This document shows positions 43,746 through 49,595 of a stretch of 64,000 nucleotides of DNA, one piece after another. This DNA is from Verrucomicrobia bacterium IMCC26134 (GTDB lineage: Bacteria; Verrucomicrobiota; Verrucomicrobiia; Opitutales; Opitutaceae), in contig CP011265.1 in NCBI GenBank assembly GCA_000972765.1, positions 2,973,001-3,037,000 of the forward strand, read 5' to 3'. The notes under the pieces were generated by a model. It saw only the letters and a list, made by a program, of their open reading frames with translations, was not told the origin of the DNA and did not search any database. Position numbers and translations under genes: made by a program. Numbering within the stretch: the first letter of the stretch is position 1; every line of letters begins with the position of its first letter.

Positions 43746-45215
43746 ATGTCCGCCACTCCTGCTGCTGCCGCTCCCTCACTCGCTCCCATCCCCGTCACTG
43801 TGCTCACCGGGTTCCTCGGCGCGGGAAAGACCACCCTGCTCAACCGCATCCTCACTGAACAGCACGGCAAAAAACTCGCCGTCATCGAAAACGAGTTCGG
43901 CGAGGTCGGCGTGGACAACCAGCTCGTCATCCAGTCCGACGAGGAACTTTTCGAGATGAACAACGGCTGCATCTGCTGCACCGTCCGCGGCGACCTCATC
44001 CGCGTCCTCGGCCGACTCATGAAGCGCAAGGACCGCCTCGACGGTATCCTCATCGAGACCACCGGCCTCGCCGACCCCGGCCCCGTCGCCCAGACCTTCT
44101 TCACCGACGACGAGATGAAGACCGCCTTCCGCCTCGACAGCATCGTCACCGTCGTGGACGCCAAACACGTCCTCCTCCACATCGACTCCTCTCCCGAGGT
44201 GAAAAAACAGATCGGTTTCGCCGACGTCATCATCCTTAACAAGACGGACCTCGTCTCCCCCGCCGACCTCGACGCCCTTGAGTCCCGCATCCACAAAATG
44301 AATGGCGCCGCCAAGCTCCATCGCACGCAAAACGCCGCCATCGACCTCAAACACGTGCTCAACGTCGGCGGCTTCAACCTCTCCCGCGCCACCGAACTCG
44401 ACCCGCAGTTTATGGAACCCACCTACCCCTTCGAGTGGGCCGGTGTCTATGCCCTCCCTGCCGGCGCCCACCAACTCGTCATCGGCCACGCCCACGATGG
44501 CTGCTGCGGCCACGATCATGACCACGCGGAGCACGACCACGCGCACGGAGAGAACGACCACGGCGGCGACGGCCACGAACACCACCACCACCATGGCCCC
44601 GAGGGCACGCTGGACATCGTCGTCATGCCCGTAAAATCCCTCGCCGAGGCCGACCTCATCGCCGCCCGCGACGCCGCGGTGCTCGTGTTCTCCGACTGGG
44701 AAAACAAAGTCGCGCCCGGCGACGCCATCGTCGCCGGCGGCACGCTCCAGCGCCTGCAAATCGGCGCGCACGCCCACGCCCACTTCGGCCTCACCATCGC
44801 CGCGCCCGGCTACTACATGGTCTTCGAAGCCTGCGGACACCACCCGCTGCACATCCACGTCATGGGCGACACCGCTCGCCCCGGTTGGCAACAAGACTAC
44901 GCCCACACCCACTCGCACGACGACGACGTCACCAGCGTCGGCATCACCACCCCCGGTGACCTTGACGGCAAAAAACTCAACGACTGGATCGGCGAGCTCC
45001 TCAAAGTGAAGGGCGGCGACATCTACCGCTGCAAAGGCGTGCTCACGGTGAAAGGCGCCCCCAACCGCCTCGTATTCCAGGGCGTGCACATGCTCTTCGA
45101 CGCGAAGTTTGACACCCCCTGGGGCGCGACCCCGCGCCATAATACCCTCGTCTTCATCGGCAAAAACCTCGACCGCGAAGCGTTGACCGAAGGCTTCAAA
45201 GCCTGCCTCGCCTGA
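43746..45215 (+). CDS. COG0523 (CobW-family) GTPase with His-rich insertion
   Basis: This 489-residue G3E GTPase of the CobW/ZNG-type metallochaperone family has Walker A GFLGAGKT (22-29), the metal-binding CICC motif (C75, C77, C78 in [13 protein letters not shown]) and the nucleotide specificity loop NKTD (165-168). A His/Asp-rich stretch at about 248-283 has over a dozen histidines and likely binds Zn or a similar metal. The C-terminal CobW_C domain begins near [13 protein letters not shown]. It probably inserts or moves zinc (or cobalt) when that metal is scarce. It is divergent from sufE; a small HTH regulator lies downstream on the other strand. Confidence 0.92.
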
Positions 45216-45230
45216 CCCGCTCACCCCCAA

Positions 45231-45259
45231 GACAAAGTAACCTTATAGGTTACTTTGTC
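45231..45259. promoter_or_regulatory. Palindrome (copy 3), overlaps HTH gene stop
   Basis: A perfect 13-bp inverted repeat, GACAAAGTAACCT / AGGTTACTTTGTC with centre TAT, contains the 17-bp core GTAACCTTATAGGTTAC (45237-45253), one base different from the two upstream copies. It lies between the convergent GTPase and HTH genes. It may be both a terminator and a binding site. Confidence 0.6.
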
Positions 45260-45630
45260 TTCGTCCTGGCCCCACCGACCGCGCTAAGCGACAGGTCCAC
45301 GCCCGCCCGTTTTTGCGCGAGCCACTCCATAATTTGCAGCATCGTCTCCGCATCCGGCATGCGACGCCCACTCTTGAGGAAATCGGTCAGTCGCTGTTTC
45401 GGGATGCCGAGGTAGCGCGCCAGCCGGACCTTCGATCCATACGACCCCAACTCCGCGCCGATTAATTTCGCGCACACGTTCCACAACGGCGTATCCACCC
45501 CCGGTCTGCGCGTAGTGTAGCTTCCGCGCCGGCGCGGTTTTAGCCTCGTCTGCAAATCCAGCGCGCCCGCCTCCGCCGCATCCGCCAGCAAGCCACCCAG
45601 CTCCATCCACATCAAAATCCTTGGGTGCAT
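45250..45630 (-). CDS. Small helix-turn-helix regulator
   Basis: This 126-residue protein has an XRE-type HTH in its C-terminal half (KVRLARYLGIPKQRLTDFLKSGRR, in pieces VRLARYLGIPKQRL and TDFLKSGRRM). The start is set at ATG 45630, since the frame upstream to 45693 would run through a 17-bp palindrome that is far more likely an operator. Palindrome copy 1 is 16 bp before the start and covers the -10 region of a plausible promoter (TTGACA on the minus strand at 45670-45675). This points to tight autorepression. Its wider targets are unknown; the genes flanking it handle metals. Confidence 0.75.
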   Translation of the reverse strand: MHPRILMWMELGGLLADAAEAGALDLQTRLKPRRRGSYTTRRPGVDTPLWNVCAKLIGAELGSYGSKVRLARYLGIPKQRLTDFLKSGRRMPDAETMLQIMEWLAQKRAGVDLSLSAVGGARTKTK

Positions 45631-45645
45631 CGGTTCCACAAAAAA

Positions 45646-45662
45646 GTAACCTAATAGGTTAC
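45646..45662. promoter_or_regulatory. Palindromic operator (copy 1)
   Basis: GTAACCTAATAGGTTAC is a perfect 8+1+8 palindrome. It sits 16 bp before the HTH gene's ATG and lies over the likely -10 element of a minus-strand promoter whose -35 is TTGACA at 45670-45675. Confidence 0.7.
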
Positions 45663-45701
45663 ACTTTTCTGTCAATCCAAGTCTTATGCCCAAGGTAAAG
45701 A

Positions 45702-45718
45702 GTAACCTAATAGGTTAC
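45702..45718. promoter_or_regulatory. Palindromic operator (copy 2)
   Basis: An identical GTAACCTAATAGGTTAC copy, 56 bp from copy 1. It is in the region between the HTH gene and the FGE gene, so it may strengthen autorepression by looping or act on the plus-strand gene. Confidence 0.7.
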
Positions 45719-45890
45719 CTTGTATTATTGATCGACTGTCGGATGTGGTCTCGATTTTTGAGCACGAATGCATGGCGGCAAGTCGGGGCGATCCGATGAA
45801 TGCCGGCACCGAGCGCCGCTTGCCCGGCCCATTTCCCGACGCTTGCCCACGCGCTTGACTGCGCAAAGCATGCCGTTGCTTTCCTGATCC

Positions 45891-46874
45891 ATGGACTCGT
45901 GCTGCTCACCTTTCCGCCCGGCACCGGCAGCCTTATCGGCAACCGAAGCCCCGTCCGACCCCGCAGCGCCCGCATTCGTCCGTATCCGCTCTAGCGATAC
46001 CGGGGGCATGGTCTTCCTCGACGGGGGCGAGTTTCTCATGGGCAACGAGGGAGCCTACGGTTTTCAGGCGGATGGCGAGGGTCCCGTCCACCCCGTTCGT
46101 CTGGCGCCTTTCTGGATGGACGCCACCACGGTCACCAACGATCAGTTCAACGCCTTCATAAACGCGACCGGATATCGCACAGAGTCGGAGCGCTTCGGCT
46201 GGTCCTTCGTTTTTTTCGGCCACCTTACCCCCGCCAGACAGAACGGCACCGAGCGGGTCCGTGTCGTCGGCAGCGAGTGGTGGTGCCGCGTCGATGGAGC
46301 CTCCTGGCGCCGCCCCGAGGGCCCGGGCTCCCACCTCAAAAATCGCCGCCACCACCCCGTCGTCCACGTTTCATGGAGCGATGCCCTCGCCTACTGTGCC
46401 TGGGCCGGAAAACGCCTCCCCACCGAGGCCGAATGGGAATACGCCGCCCGCGGTGGTCTGGGCCAAAAGCGTTATCCTTGGGGCGAAGATCTCGAGCCCG
46501 AAGGCAAACACCGCATGAACGTCTGGCAGGGCGTCTTCCCCACTCAAAACACCCTCGCCGACGGCCACTTCGGCCCCGCCCCCGCCAAAAGCTACCGCGC
46601 CAACGCCTACGGTCTCTACCAGATGACCGGTAACGTCTGGGAATGGTGTTGGGATCTTTTCTCACCCCATACCTATCCGAGCCAGACAGCCTTGCGTATC
46701 GACCCCACCGGACCCGACCACTCCGACTCATTACAACCGCGCCGCGTCATGCGTGGCGGTAGCTATCTTTGCCACGCCAGCTACTGCAACCGCTACCGCG
46801 TGGATGGCCGCAGCAGCAACACGCCCGACAGCGCCACCACCAACCTCGGCTTTCGCTGCGTGCGCGATGCGTGA
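45891..46874 (+). CDS. Formylglycine-generating enzyme (SUMF1/FGE family)
   Basis: This 327-residue protein is an FGE that oxidises a cysteine in sulfatases to formylglycine, using a copper centre. The two active-site cysteines are present: C294 and C299 in GGSYLCHASYCNRYR, followed by SSNTPDSATTNLGFRC, as in characterised FGEs. The fold marks are MVFLDGGEFLMGNE, WMDATTVTNDQFNAF, NHPVVHVSW-like HHPVVHVSWSDALAYCAWAGKRLPTEAEWEYAARGG (pieces PVVHVSWSDALAYC and RLPTEAEWEYAARGG) and GNVWEWCWDLFSP. ATG 45891 adds a Pro/Ala leader with two cysteines; a start at 46009 is possible. No sulfatase gene is within the window. Confidence 0.92.
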   Translation: MDSCCSPFRPAPAALSATEAPSDPAAPAFVRIRSSDTGGMVFLDGGEFLMGNEGAYGFQADGEGPVHPVRLAPFWMDATTVTNDQFNAFINATGYRTESERFGWSFVFFGHLTPARQNGTERVRVVGSEWWCRVDGASWRRPEGPGSHLKNRRHHPVVHVSWSDALAYCAWAGKRLPTEAEWEYAARGGLGQKRYPWGEDLEPEGKHRMNVWQGVFPTQNTLADGHFGPAPAKSYRANAYGLYQMTGNVWEWCWDLFSPHTYPSQTALRIDPTGPDHSDSLQPRRVMRGGSYLCHASYCNRYRVDGRSSNTPDSATTNLGFRCVRDA

Positions 46875-48332: not shown

Positions 48333-49595
48333 TCAGATTTCCAGGCACCCATCCAACTGCGCCCGCAACTCCGCCTCCCGCGCCGCCACGCCGACACCGA
48401 TCAACACGATCTCCTGCCGCCGGTCGCCCCAAGGCTCCTCCCAAAGCTTCGCCACTGTCGGCGGCACATCGCCCCTCCGCGCCCGCCCCGTCTCCACCCG
48501 CGCCGCCCACCAGGTGCTCAAGGTCTCCCAGCGCACCACTCCTCCCGCCAGCGACACATAGCCCATCTCGTCCGGCTGCGCTCGCGTCCAAAAAAAACCC
48601 TTCGCCCTCAGCAAGCCCGGCAACCCGTCCGCAAACGCCGTCCGCAATCGCTCCTCGTTAAAAGGCACCCGCGCGCGGTAAATGCAACTCGTGATCCCGT
48701 ATTTGCTCTCATGATACGCAGCCGCTTTTGGCCGGGCCGCGAAGCCCGCCGCAGGCTCATTGGCCACCCGGTTCAGCTCCCGAATCCACCTTGCCGCCCC
48801 ACCCGTCGCCGCCGCATCGAAACGCACCCGCCCGGTAAAAAACTCCGCCGCCACCTGCCCGCGTTCGGTGCTCACGATCTCGGCCCGCGCGTTCAATCCC
48901 GCCACCAGCGCCTCTGCCCGCGCCACCTCGTCCCCCGCCTCCGTCGCACGGTCGCACTGGTTTAAAATCACCACGTCGGCGCACTCCACCTGCTCCAGCA
49001 TCAGCTCAAACACCGGTCTCGCCCCGCTTGCCGGCACCAAGCGCCCGGCCTTGGCTTCCGAAGCCCTGGCGAAGGAGGCCGCTTCATTCGCGAACGCCAC
49101 CACGTCGATTACCGTCACCATCGCCGCCGGCACCACCAGATCGGCCAGCGACTTTCCGAAAGGATTCTTGCGCGTAAACAACCCCATCACTCCGCGGGGC
49201 TCCGCCACTCCGCTCGTCTCCACAAAAATATGTTCGTAGCGCCCGCTCGCCGCCAACCGCGCGATCGCCTCGCCCAGCTCGTCCGAGCCCGAGCAACACA
49301 CGCAGCCATTACCCAGCTCCACGATCGCCTCCGCCCCCGCCAGTCCCGCCGCCGTATCGGCCTCGCTCGCCGCCCGCACCACCGCCCCATCGATATTCAC
49401 CGCCGCCACGTCATTCACAATCGCCGCCCAGCGCGCACCGCCACCACCCGCTCCCGCCGTGCCCGCCTGCGCCAGCAACTGCCGCAACAGCGTCGTTTTT
49501 CCCGCCCCCAAAAAACCGCAAAACACCGTCACCCAGGGCCGTTGCTGATCAGGATTAATCACCAGACCACTCAGCCCCACCCGCCATCTCCGCAC
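48333..49595 (-). CDS. Second COG0523 (CobW-family) GTPase
   Basis: This 420-residue G3E GTPase has Walker [10 protein letters not shown] (27-35), the metal-binding NGCVCC motif (C98, C100, C101), switch region FVETSGVAEP and the C-terminal CobW_C domain (KGFFWTRAQPDEMGYVSLAG). The specificity loop reads NQCD rather than NKxD. Unlike the first COG0523 protein it has no His-rich insertion. It is transcribed toward the WD40-small protein pair. It is a metallochaperone-type GTPase; the metal cannot be read from the sequence. Confidence 0.9.
   Translation of the reverse strand: MRRWRVGLSGLVINPDQQRPWVTVFCGFLGAGKTTLLRQLLAQAGTAGAGGGGARWAAIVNDVAAVNIDGAVVRAASEADTAAGLAGAEAIVELGNGCVCCSGSDELGEAIARLAASGRYEHIFVETSGVAEPRGVMGLFTRKNPFGKSLADLVVPAAMVTVIDVVAFANEAASFARASEAKAGRLVPASGARPVFELMLEQVECADVVILNQCDRATEAGDEVARAEALVAGLNARAEIVSTERGQVAAEFFTGRVRFDAAATGGAARWIRELNRVANEPAAGFAARPKAAAYHESKYGITSCIYRARVPFNEERLRTAFADGLPGLLRAKGFFWTRAQPDEMGYVSLAGGVVRWETLSTWWAARVETGRARRGDVPPTVAKLWEEPWGDRRQEIVLIGVGVAAREAELRAQLDGCLEI

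Follow-up and report, generated by a model that had tools for sequence, protein, structure and literature searches.

The window locus

The locus described here lies in a window of 64,000 nucleotides (the whole stretch of DNA that was analysed). It is composed of a small HTH gene, three copies of a 17-bp palindrome and an adjacent GTPase gene, as follows.

43746-45215: COG0523-type (CobW) GTPase gene, its terminus 13 bp short of the copy-3 hairpin
45229-45261: palindrome copy 3 (hairpin; core 45237-45253), with centre TAT instead of AAT, including the HTH stop codon
45250-45630, minus strand: gene call for the 126-aa HTH protein P0001
45370-45399, minus strand: codons of residues 78-87, the predicted recognition helix (coordinates derived from the start codon)
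45646-45662: palindrome copy 1, GTAACCTAATAGGTTAC, 0 mismatches, 15 bp ahead of the HTH start codon
45702-45718: palindrome copy 2, GTAACCTAATAGGTTAC, 0 mismatches, 56 bp from copy 1 (start-to-start)

An earlier note on this DNA had claimed two perfect 17-bp copies and one single-base variant. Their positions are confirmed and they exceed chance, as GTAACCTAATAGGTTAC with up to three mismatches yields six matches counting both strands (i.e., three places) when shuffles of the window average 0.01. The 126-residue HTH gene was also correctly recognized. The inverted repeat proposed at its stop codon is present, with arms of 15 bp (45229-45243 and 45247-45261, perfectly paired around a 3-nt loop) instead of 13 bp, and copy 1 does lie just upstream of the start, at 15 bp and not 16 bp. 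The proposed overlap of copy 1 with a -10 region finds no support in a sigma-70 consensus scan of positions 45150-45900, which returns no promoter-like site, the consensus saying little for this phylum. Six neighbors were scanned, i.e., two COG0523-type GTPases, SufE, a molybdopterin oxidoreductase, an FGE-sulfatase, and a WD40 protein. The two COG0523-type (CobW) GTPase genes (43746-45215 and 48333-49595) are located on opposite strands within less than 6 kb, near SufE and the molybdopterin oxidoreductase.

Control of the COG0523 neighbor through the third copy, also suggested earlier, is not borne out in relatives. In 13 other genomes of the genus (loci L317-L329), for which 670-1501 bp past the COG0523 gene are covered and the two main palindrome types were sought, both the HTH gene and a palindrome of these types are absent downstream of it. 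Two of these genomes, G003 and G014, possess a close homologue on other contigs, and the cassette thus occupies non-orthologous places. Metal control of the Zur, Fur, or CsoR type seems unlikely, the cassette showing no linkage to COG0523 in the 13 relatives. In G013, a palindrome-like stretch (G013:C114:2495-2531) precedes the FGE-sulfatase gene with no HTH gene between; it is found 175 bp from the anchor, copy 2 of the window being at 177 bp (short matches of 45.5 and 42.8 bits, compared by coordinates alone). No palindrome-like stretch occurs in G009, the only other FGE-sulfatase upstream region compared. Judging from these sequences, the palindrome of G013 may predate the cassette; alternatively, G013 may have lost it.

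The HTH protein and its family

Structurally, P0001 is predicted to possess a long N-terminal helix (residues 3-29), a linker, and a C-terminal lambda-repressor-like helical domain. Its AlphaFold model, computed with 28 sequences, has a mean pLDDT of 82, and residues 78-87 form a helix in the recognition-helix position of the lambda-repressor-like domain, according to this model, whose structural matches are weak. Foldseek returns a best E of 0.41 with the model. VIA aligns it with lambda repressor entries at Z scores of 5.5-6.0 (64-70 residues, rmsd 2.7-3.5), which may mean a common arrangement only; the VIA list is headed by HNF-1 and HNF-6 domains, likewise attributed to a shared arrangement of helices. 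Every Pfam and NCBIfam model stays below its cut-off for P0001: HTH_3 reaches 16.7 bits, under a cut-off of 23, and YdaS_toxin (PF15943) 17.6 bits, under a curated cut-off of 30. The 28 aligned members give weak profile matches only (E of 1e-5 or worse). The YdaS profile covers the HTH weakly in 20 of them at E <= 0.01, PADLOC finds a weak RmrA match in two, and NCBIfam a weak HigA match in one and a weak invertase-model match in another. The Y1/HUH profile does not match P0001.

Homologues are present in 73 of 150 Opitutaceae genomes, belonging to 33 of 49 genera. A scan of the phylum matches 20 of 387 genomes, 17 of them in Opitutaceae and three, weak, elsewhere. Among 84,980 named species genomes, queried with the GTAACC subgroup, 34 loci were retrieved: 33 are titled Opitutaceae genera or Opitutae, Opitutia, or Verrucomicrobia at large, and one Akkermansia muciniphila. 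No relative was found in plasmids, phages, or viral contigs (for the latter, one scan with one peptide pattern). The HTH gene is a member of an unnamed HTH family. A remote paralogue occurs in the window's genome (79907-80215, 27% identity), with a different upstream palindrome, GTCAATCATTGATTGAC. Three more genomes within the genus (loci L267, L268, and L274) have this palindrome type together with a near-identical recognition helix, and the paralogue may therefore be a vertically kept relative.

The palindrome bracket

The homologue set comprises 141 distinct proteins: 145 loci were reduced to 131 by dropping identical proteins, and 17 further loci added 10. Among the family-scan matches lacking a locus, 80 were taken in list order and the weakest omitted. 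The bracket was counted at the 134 loci having at least 300 bp on each side, with 192 windows of the same loci, shifted by 700-2200 bp, as controls. An AT-centered palindrome is found upstream of the gene at 97 loci, downstream at 90, and on both sides at 75; the corresponding control figures are 21, 32, and 0. The two sides carry an identical 6-bp half-site at 74 of the 134 loci, versus none of the 192 control windows. Orthologous genes lacking the motif would have refuted the reading of the earlier note; homologous genes do carry it. By the bracket test, 23 of the 141 homologue loci have no palindrome. The sites lie close to the gene: the nearest palindrome is no more than 30 bp from the stop codon in 64 of 88 loci. 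Upstream, it is equally near to the start codon in 61 of the 96 loci that have one, in support of the autorepression proposed earlier. The inner pair of the bracket is inverted in 49 of 75 cases (p = 0.011), and neighboring sites on the same side are inverted in 28 cases and direct in 18.

The 116 typed loci display 26 seven-base half-site types, among them GTAACCT, GTCACGT, GTCAACT, GTAACGT, GTCACTT, and TTAACCA; base 2 is T and base 4 is A in nearly all cases. Paralogues within a genome mostly differ: of the 22 genomes in which two or three genes were typed, only one repeats a 6-bp half-site, for 3.9 expected (P = 0.053), so that avoidance of repeated specificities inside one genome is marginal. 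A second repeat type, consisting of paired palindromes (e.g., GGACATTCTTGTCC, GGACAGGAATGTCC, and GACATTCTTGTC), is observed downstream of the HTH gene at L186 and L182, two HTH genes of G049.

Co-variation of residues and bases

Co-variation was analysed in 116 of the 141 proteins, leaving out the 23 without a palindrome and two with an unlike one. Residues 78, 80, 82, and 83 of the predicted recognition helix, and residue 90 just past it, co-vary with bases of the palindrome. The strictest association links residue 78 to base 1 in all 116 cases, K or R occurring with G (105/105) and P with T, C, or A (11/11). Residue 90 is associated with base 6: R is found with C in 69 of 69 proteins, and 42 of the 47 proteins with another residue have G, T, or A. 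Base 5 follows residues 80 and 83, being C in 89 of the 91 proteins with R80 and D, E, or N83, A in 14 of the 15 in which residue 80 is A, Q, S, or T, and T in the six in which residue 83 is L or V. The link of residue 82 to base 3 is looser (H or D with C in 39 of 45).

A tree from which these columns were excluded requires seven changes each for residue 78 and base 1, eight for residue 90, and twelve for base 6. Well-supported branches offer only two to four independent pairs per test, too few for a sign test, and these almost never run against the predicted direction. Columns 38, 40, and 96, outside the helix, co-vary too, and ancestry therefore contributes to the signal. Given this co-variation in 116 homologues, binding of the palindrome by the HTH protein is very probable.

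Dispersed copies

The palindrome is not confined to the bracket. The window genome (a single contig of 4.001 Mb) contains 14 perfect copies of GTAACCTN3AGGTTAC, the reversed control giving none, and one further near-perfect copy with one mismatch at 470564. With up to three mismatches, 87 matches are found in total versus 80 for the reversed control; past the 15 near-perfect copies, matches are at chance level. The copies are thus bimodal, with no excess of decayed ones. The hundreds of dispersed copies genome-wide that the earlier note had set against its own reading are not found. The 15 sites are not restricted to one chromosomal region; several overlap or adjoin gene ends and two lie within called ORFs. 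These two (L021:6963 and L021:8859) fall within the ORFs of allophanate hydrolase and urea carboxylase, in the same frame, and encode QSNL(L/I)GYF in a variable linker of each enzyme. An in-frame insertion was considered there and set aside, the few extra residues in the allophanate hydrolase alignment being insufficient proof. Other neighbors of the sites resemble queC, hemN, lipB, and thymidine phosphorylase.

Among the 15 genomes of the genus, the 21-bp form is present in 9, 23, and 37 copies in three, in three copies and one copy in two, and is absent from ten. The three rich genomes carry a close homologue (profile scores of 164-172 bits); the next homologues, in G002 (149 bits) and G011 (141 bits), belong to genomes without 21-bp sites. 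At the family level, the general pattern GTMACBTN3AVGTKAC has 1519 matches in 150 genomes, the reversed pattern 22. The mean is 19.8 in the 73 gene-bearing genomes versus 1.0 in the 77 without the gene (p = 3e-17). No match occurs in 11 of the 73, at least seven of which have a gene type whose palindrome this pattern cannot match, and 5-9 matches occur in seven of the 77 genomes in which no gene was detected.

Counts by type, made in the 68 genomes with examined loci and including bracket copies, follow the gene carried. GTAACCT sites have a median of 8 in the 19 genomes with that gene type and 0 in the other 49 (p = 1.5e-6). For GTCACGT sites, the median is 24 in the 11 genomes with that gene type and 0 in the remaining 57 (p = 1.5e-8). 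A genome tends to be rich in the palindrome of its own gene type and not in that of another. Seven of the 19 GTAACCT-type genomes have 0 or 1 perfect copy of the exact pattern, and G036 and G099 harbor 17 and 22 GTCACGT sites, none of their examined loci containing a gene of the GTCACGT type.

Spacing and symmetry of the sites

Neighboring sites are phased. Among 50 non-redundant neighboring pairs with spacings of 26-130 bp, 42 fall in four classes, 44-48 (10 pairs), 53-57 (17), 65-67 (10), and 76-81 bp (5), the remaining eight being 36, 87, 89, 98, 101, 110, 112, and 124. These spacings have a period of 11.1 bp (R = 0.72, a value matched by none of 20,000 jittered sets), and the spacer sequences look unrelated. 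Such phasing at ~11 bp is the pattern expected when dimers meet on the same DNA face. The 56 bp between copies 1 and 2 of the window fall in the 53-57 bp class. Site triplets at L290:2863-2999 and L292:2674-2810 have spacings of 66 and 54 bp, both in phase. Palindromy reaches past the 17 bp: in the outer arms of 229 sites flanking genes, the bases co-vary in Watson-Crick fashion and G-U pairs are not above expectation, and the symmetry therefore seems to be kept at the DNA level.

Proposed mechanism and alternatives

The bracket, the dispersal, the co-occurrence by type, the recognition-helix co-variation, and the phased spacing are features of the sequences themselves. They are probably best explained by a symmetric dimer with two sets of targets, its own bracket and tens of dispersed sites; phased pairs would be bound cooperatively. 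We infer binding, autorepression, and cooperativity along the following lines. The HTH protein would dimerize on the palindrome, with one recognition helix per half-site. Sites right before its own start codon would allow self-repression, and those right after the stop would close the bracket. The same protein would occupy tens of identical, mostly intergenic chromosomal sites. Bound dimers at nearby sites would probably touch, since the spacing keeps them on one DNA face, and the DNA between would be looped or stiffened. Homologue specificities would have diverged jointly with their palindromes, leaving one or a few such pairs per genome, and the gene with its bracket could sit at unrelated places in related genomes. 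Neither the dispersed copies nor the existence of a whole family of matching protein-palindrome pairs figured in the earlier reading.

An appreciable, though minority, chance is left to a conventional local autorepressor that also controls a small regulon of promoters, the dispersed copies being operators of target genes. The sites at the gene's own start fit such a regulon, as do the differing half-sites of same-genome paralogues (21 of 22 genomes). Site context was recorded for 149 sites of seven genomes, a number that includes bracket copies and, for G054, G127, G087, and G034, covers the first-listed part of the sites only. Divergent genes flank 29 of them, also as a regulon would have it, tandem genes 67, and convergent genes 23; three are at edges and 27 inside called ORFs, these last calls being uncertain with a home-made caller and ORFs that can run through sites in GC-rich DNA. 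The 119 sites called intergenic by this caller are however distributed in proportions similar to those of 392 control gaps (261 tandem, 74 divergent, 57 convergent), so that a promoter regulon and a 3'-end element alike are not favored. A gene-3'-end repeat, suggested by the window genome, is not upheld by the 149 sites. Against a regulon also stand the sites downstream of the gene, about as frequent as those upstream, and the sites of the window genome at gene ends or inside two ORFs, whose neighbors have no obvious theme, an assessment in which the urea carboxylase and the allophanate hydrolase are the only identities checked.

A bolder proposal is held tentatively. Together, the non-catalytic HTH protein and its palindrome would be a self-bracketed unit able to pass from genome to genome, to multiply its sites without a transposase of its own, and to evade older copies by shifting its recognition code. 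If so, it would be a genomic parasite or an architecture system of a new class, and several orthogonal systems would coexist in one cell through these shifts.

Doubtful, too, are REP/REPIN-like mobile palindromes, i.e., tiny non-autonomous elements moved by the HTH protein (RAYT-like) or, in trans, by a Y1 transposase. They would account for the patchy occurrence within the genus, where five of 15 genomes have between 1 and 37 copies, for the repeats bracketing the gene with the inner pair often inverted, and for the palindrome-like stretch without HTH gene in G013, at the copy-2 distance. Y1 transposases are moreover present in 14 of the 15 genus genomes; yet the 20 Y1 loci examined, out of 35 matches, all lack a palindrome of this type. 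Beyond the site itself, most of the seven genomes share a short flank, and the copies of the sister genomes G003 and G014 have in common a 12-base asymmetric tail outside the 17 bp, TTGATGCTGGGG, as expected of copied units, which hints at copying in that lineage. G087, on the other hand, conserves almost nothing outside the 17 bp, and decayed copies are not in excess in the window genome. In three regions aligned between G003 and G014, the intergenic DNA is too diverged for clean insertion boundaries at empty sites, and the perfect conservation of shared sites is biased, the sample consisting of perfect sites only. GTAG lies within 14 bp of five of the 149 sites and CGTC of 16, not above chance by our own estimate of the expectation, and no such consensus appears in the seven genomes. 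Mobility, finally, does not predict the helical phasing observed across unrelated-looking spacers. As a separate observation, three tandem Y1 transposase genes with identical scores, 836 bp apart, are found at G000:C1:723729-725730 (L127 and L139).

MatP, Noc, and SlmA are nucleoid-organizing proteins of a comparable kind, and dispersed sites shaping the chromosome would agree with tens of mostly intergenic copies in many genomes and with phased pairs suggestive of bridging or looping. Such a role is nevertheless improbable here: the gene is undetected in 77 of the 150 family genomes, its specificity is variable, and several paralogues may share a genome, all unlike a conserved cell-cycle role, and the 15 sites of the window genome are not limited to one region. 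Palindromes acting as RNA hairpins or terminators are highly improbable, since the perfect 15-bp hairpin of copy 3 at convergent gene ends and the four matches resembling terminators in this region (for 0.7 expected) are set against outer arms that co-vary without a G-U excess, sites not concentrated at 3' ends, and an Rfam search giving no family above its gathering score.

Comparison with known systems

The dimer proposed above and its phased pairs predict a concrete higher-order complex. The family offers more than 100 natural protein-operator pairs with, if the co-variation is read as contacts, an almost readable base-by-residue code on one HTH scaffold, useful for specificity prediction and design. 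A literature search returned no description of this HTH-palindrome pairing; the 17-mer GTAACCTAATAGGTTAC was not found in the literature text, nor GTCACGTAATACGTGAC among the matches listed. The family of paired proteins and binding sites is apparently undescribed.

XRE/Cro-C1 autoregulators, such as R-M controller (C) proteins and the HigA and HipB antitoxins, are similar in the palindromic operator at their own start (here a palindrome within 30 bp in 61 of 96 loci) and, if the prediction for the C-terminal domain holds, in a lambda-repressor-like fold. They differ in that the putative operators described here are also located after the gene and dispersed in the genome; furthermore, no toxin, restriction, or methylase partner is found among the six window neighbors. 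YdaS (PF15943) shares a weak profile match over the HTH, although P0001 scores 17.6 bits for a cut-off of 30.

Among known arrangements, REP/RAYT systems (TnpA-REP, REPtrons) and REPINs come closest (PMC3116915, PMC3733652, PMC8266576). REP/RAYT systems have dispersed extragenic palindromes, with a GTAG or CGTC tetranucleotide at one end, and a cognate Y1 gene flanked by the repeats; in REPINs, inverted doublets are the replicating unit. According to PMC3733652, GTAG repeats are highly enriched in Opitutus terrae. Several traits are shared: short extragenic palindromes are dispersed and patchy between relatives, the same repeat flanks the cognate gene, gene and repeat specificity co-evolve, and doublets occur. 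The present system differs by its cognate protein, an HTH DNA-binding protein without a Y1/HUH match, by its lack of a GTAG/CGTC tag, and by its unrelated-looking, helically phased spacers. It is set apart because a Y1 transposase as cognate gene and the GTAG/CGTC tag, both defining for REP/RAYT, were looked for and not found, and it appears by analogy to work somewhat like REP/RAYT without being one. The cognate gene of this REP-like repeat seems to encode an ordinary DNA-binding protein, and whether dispersed palindromes need a dedicated transposase thus becomes directly testable.
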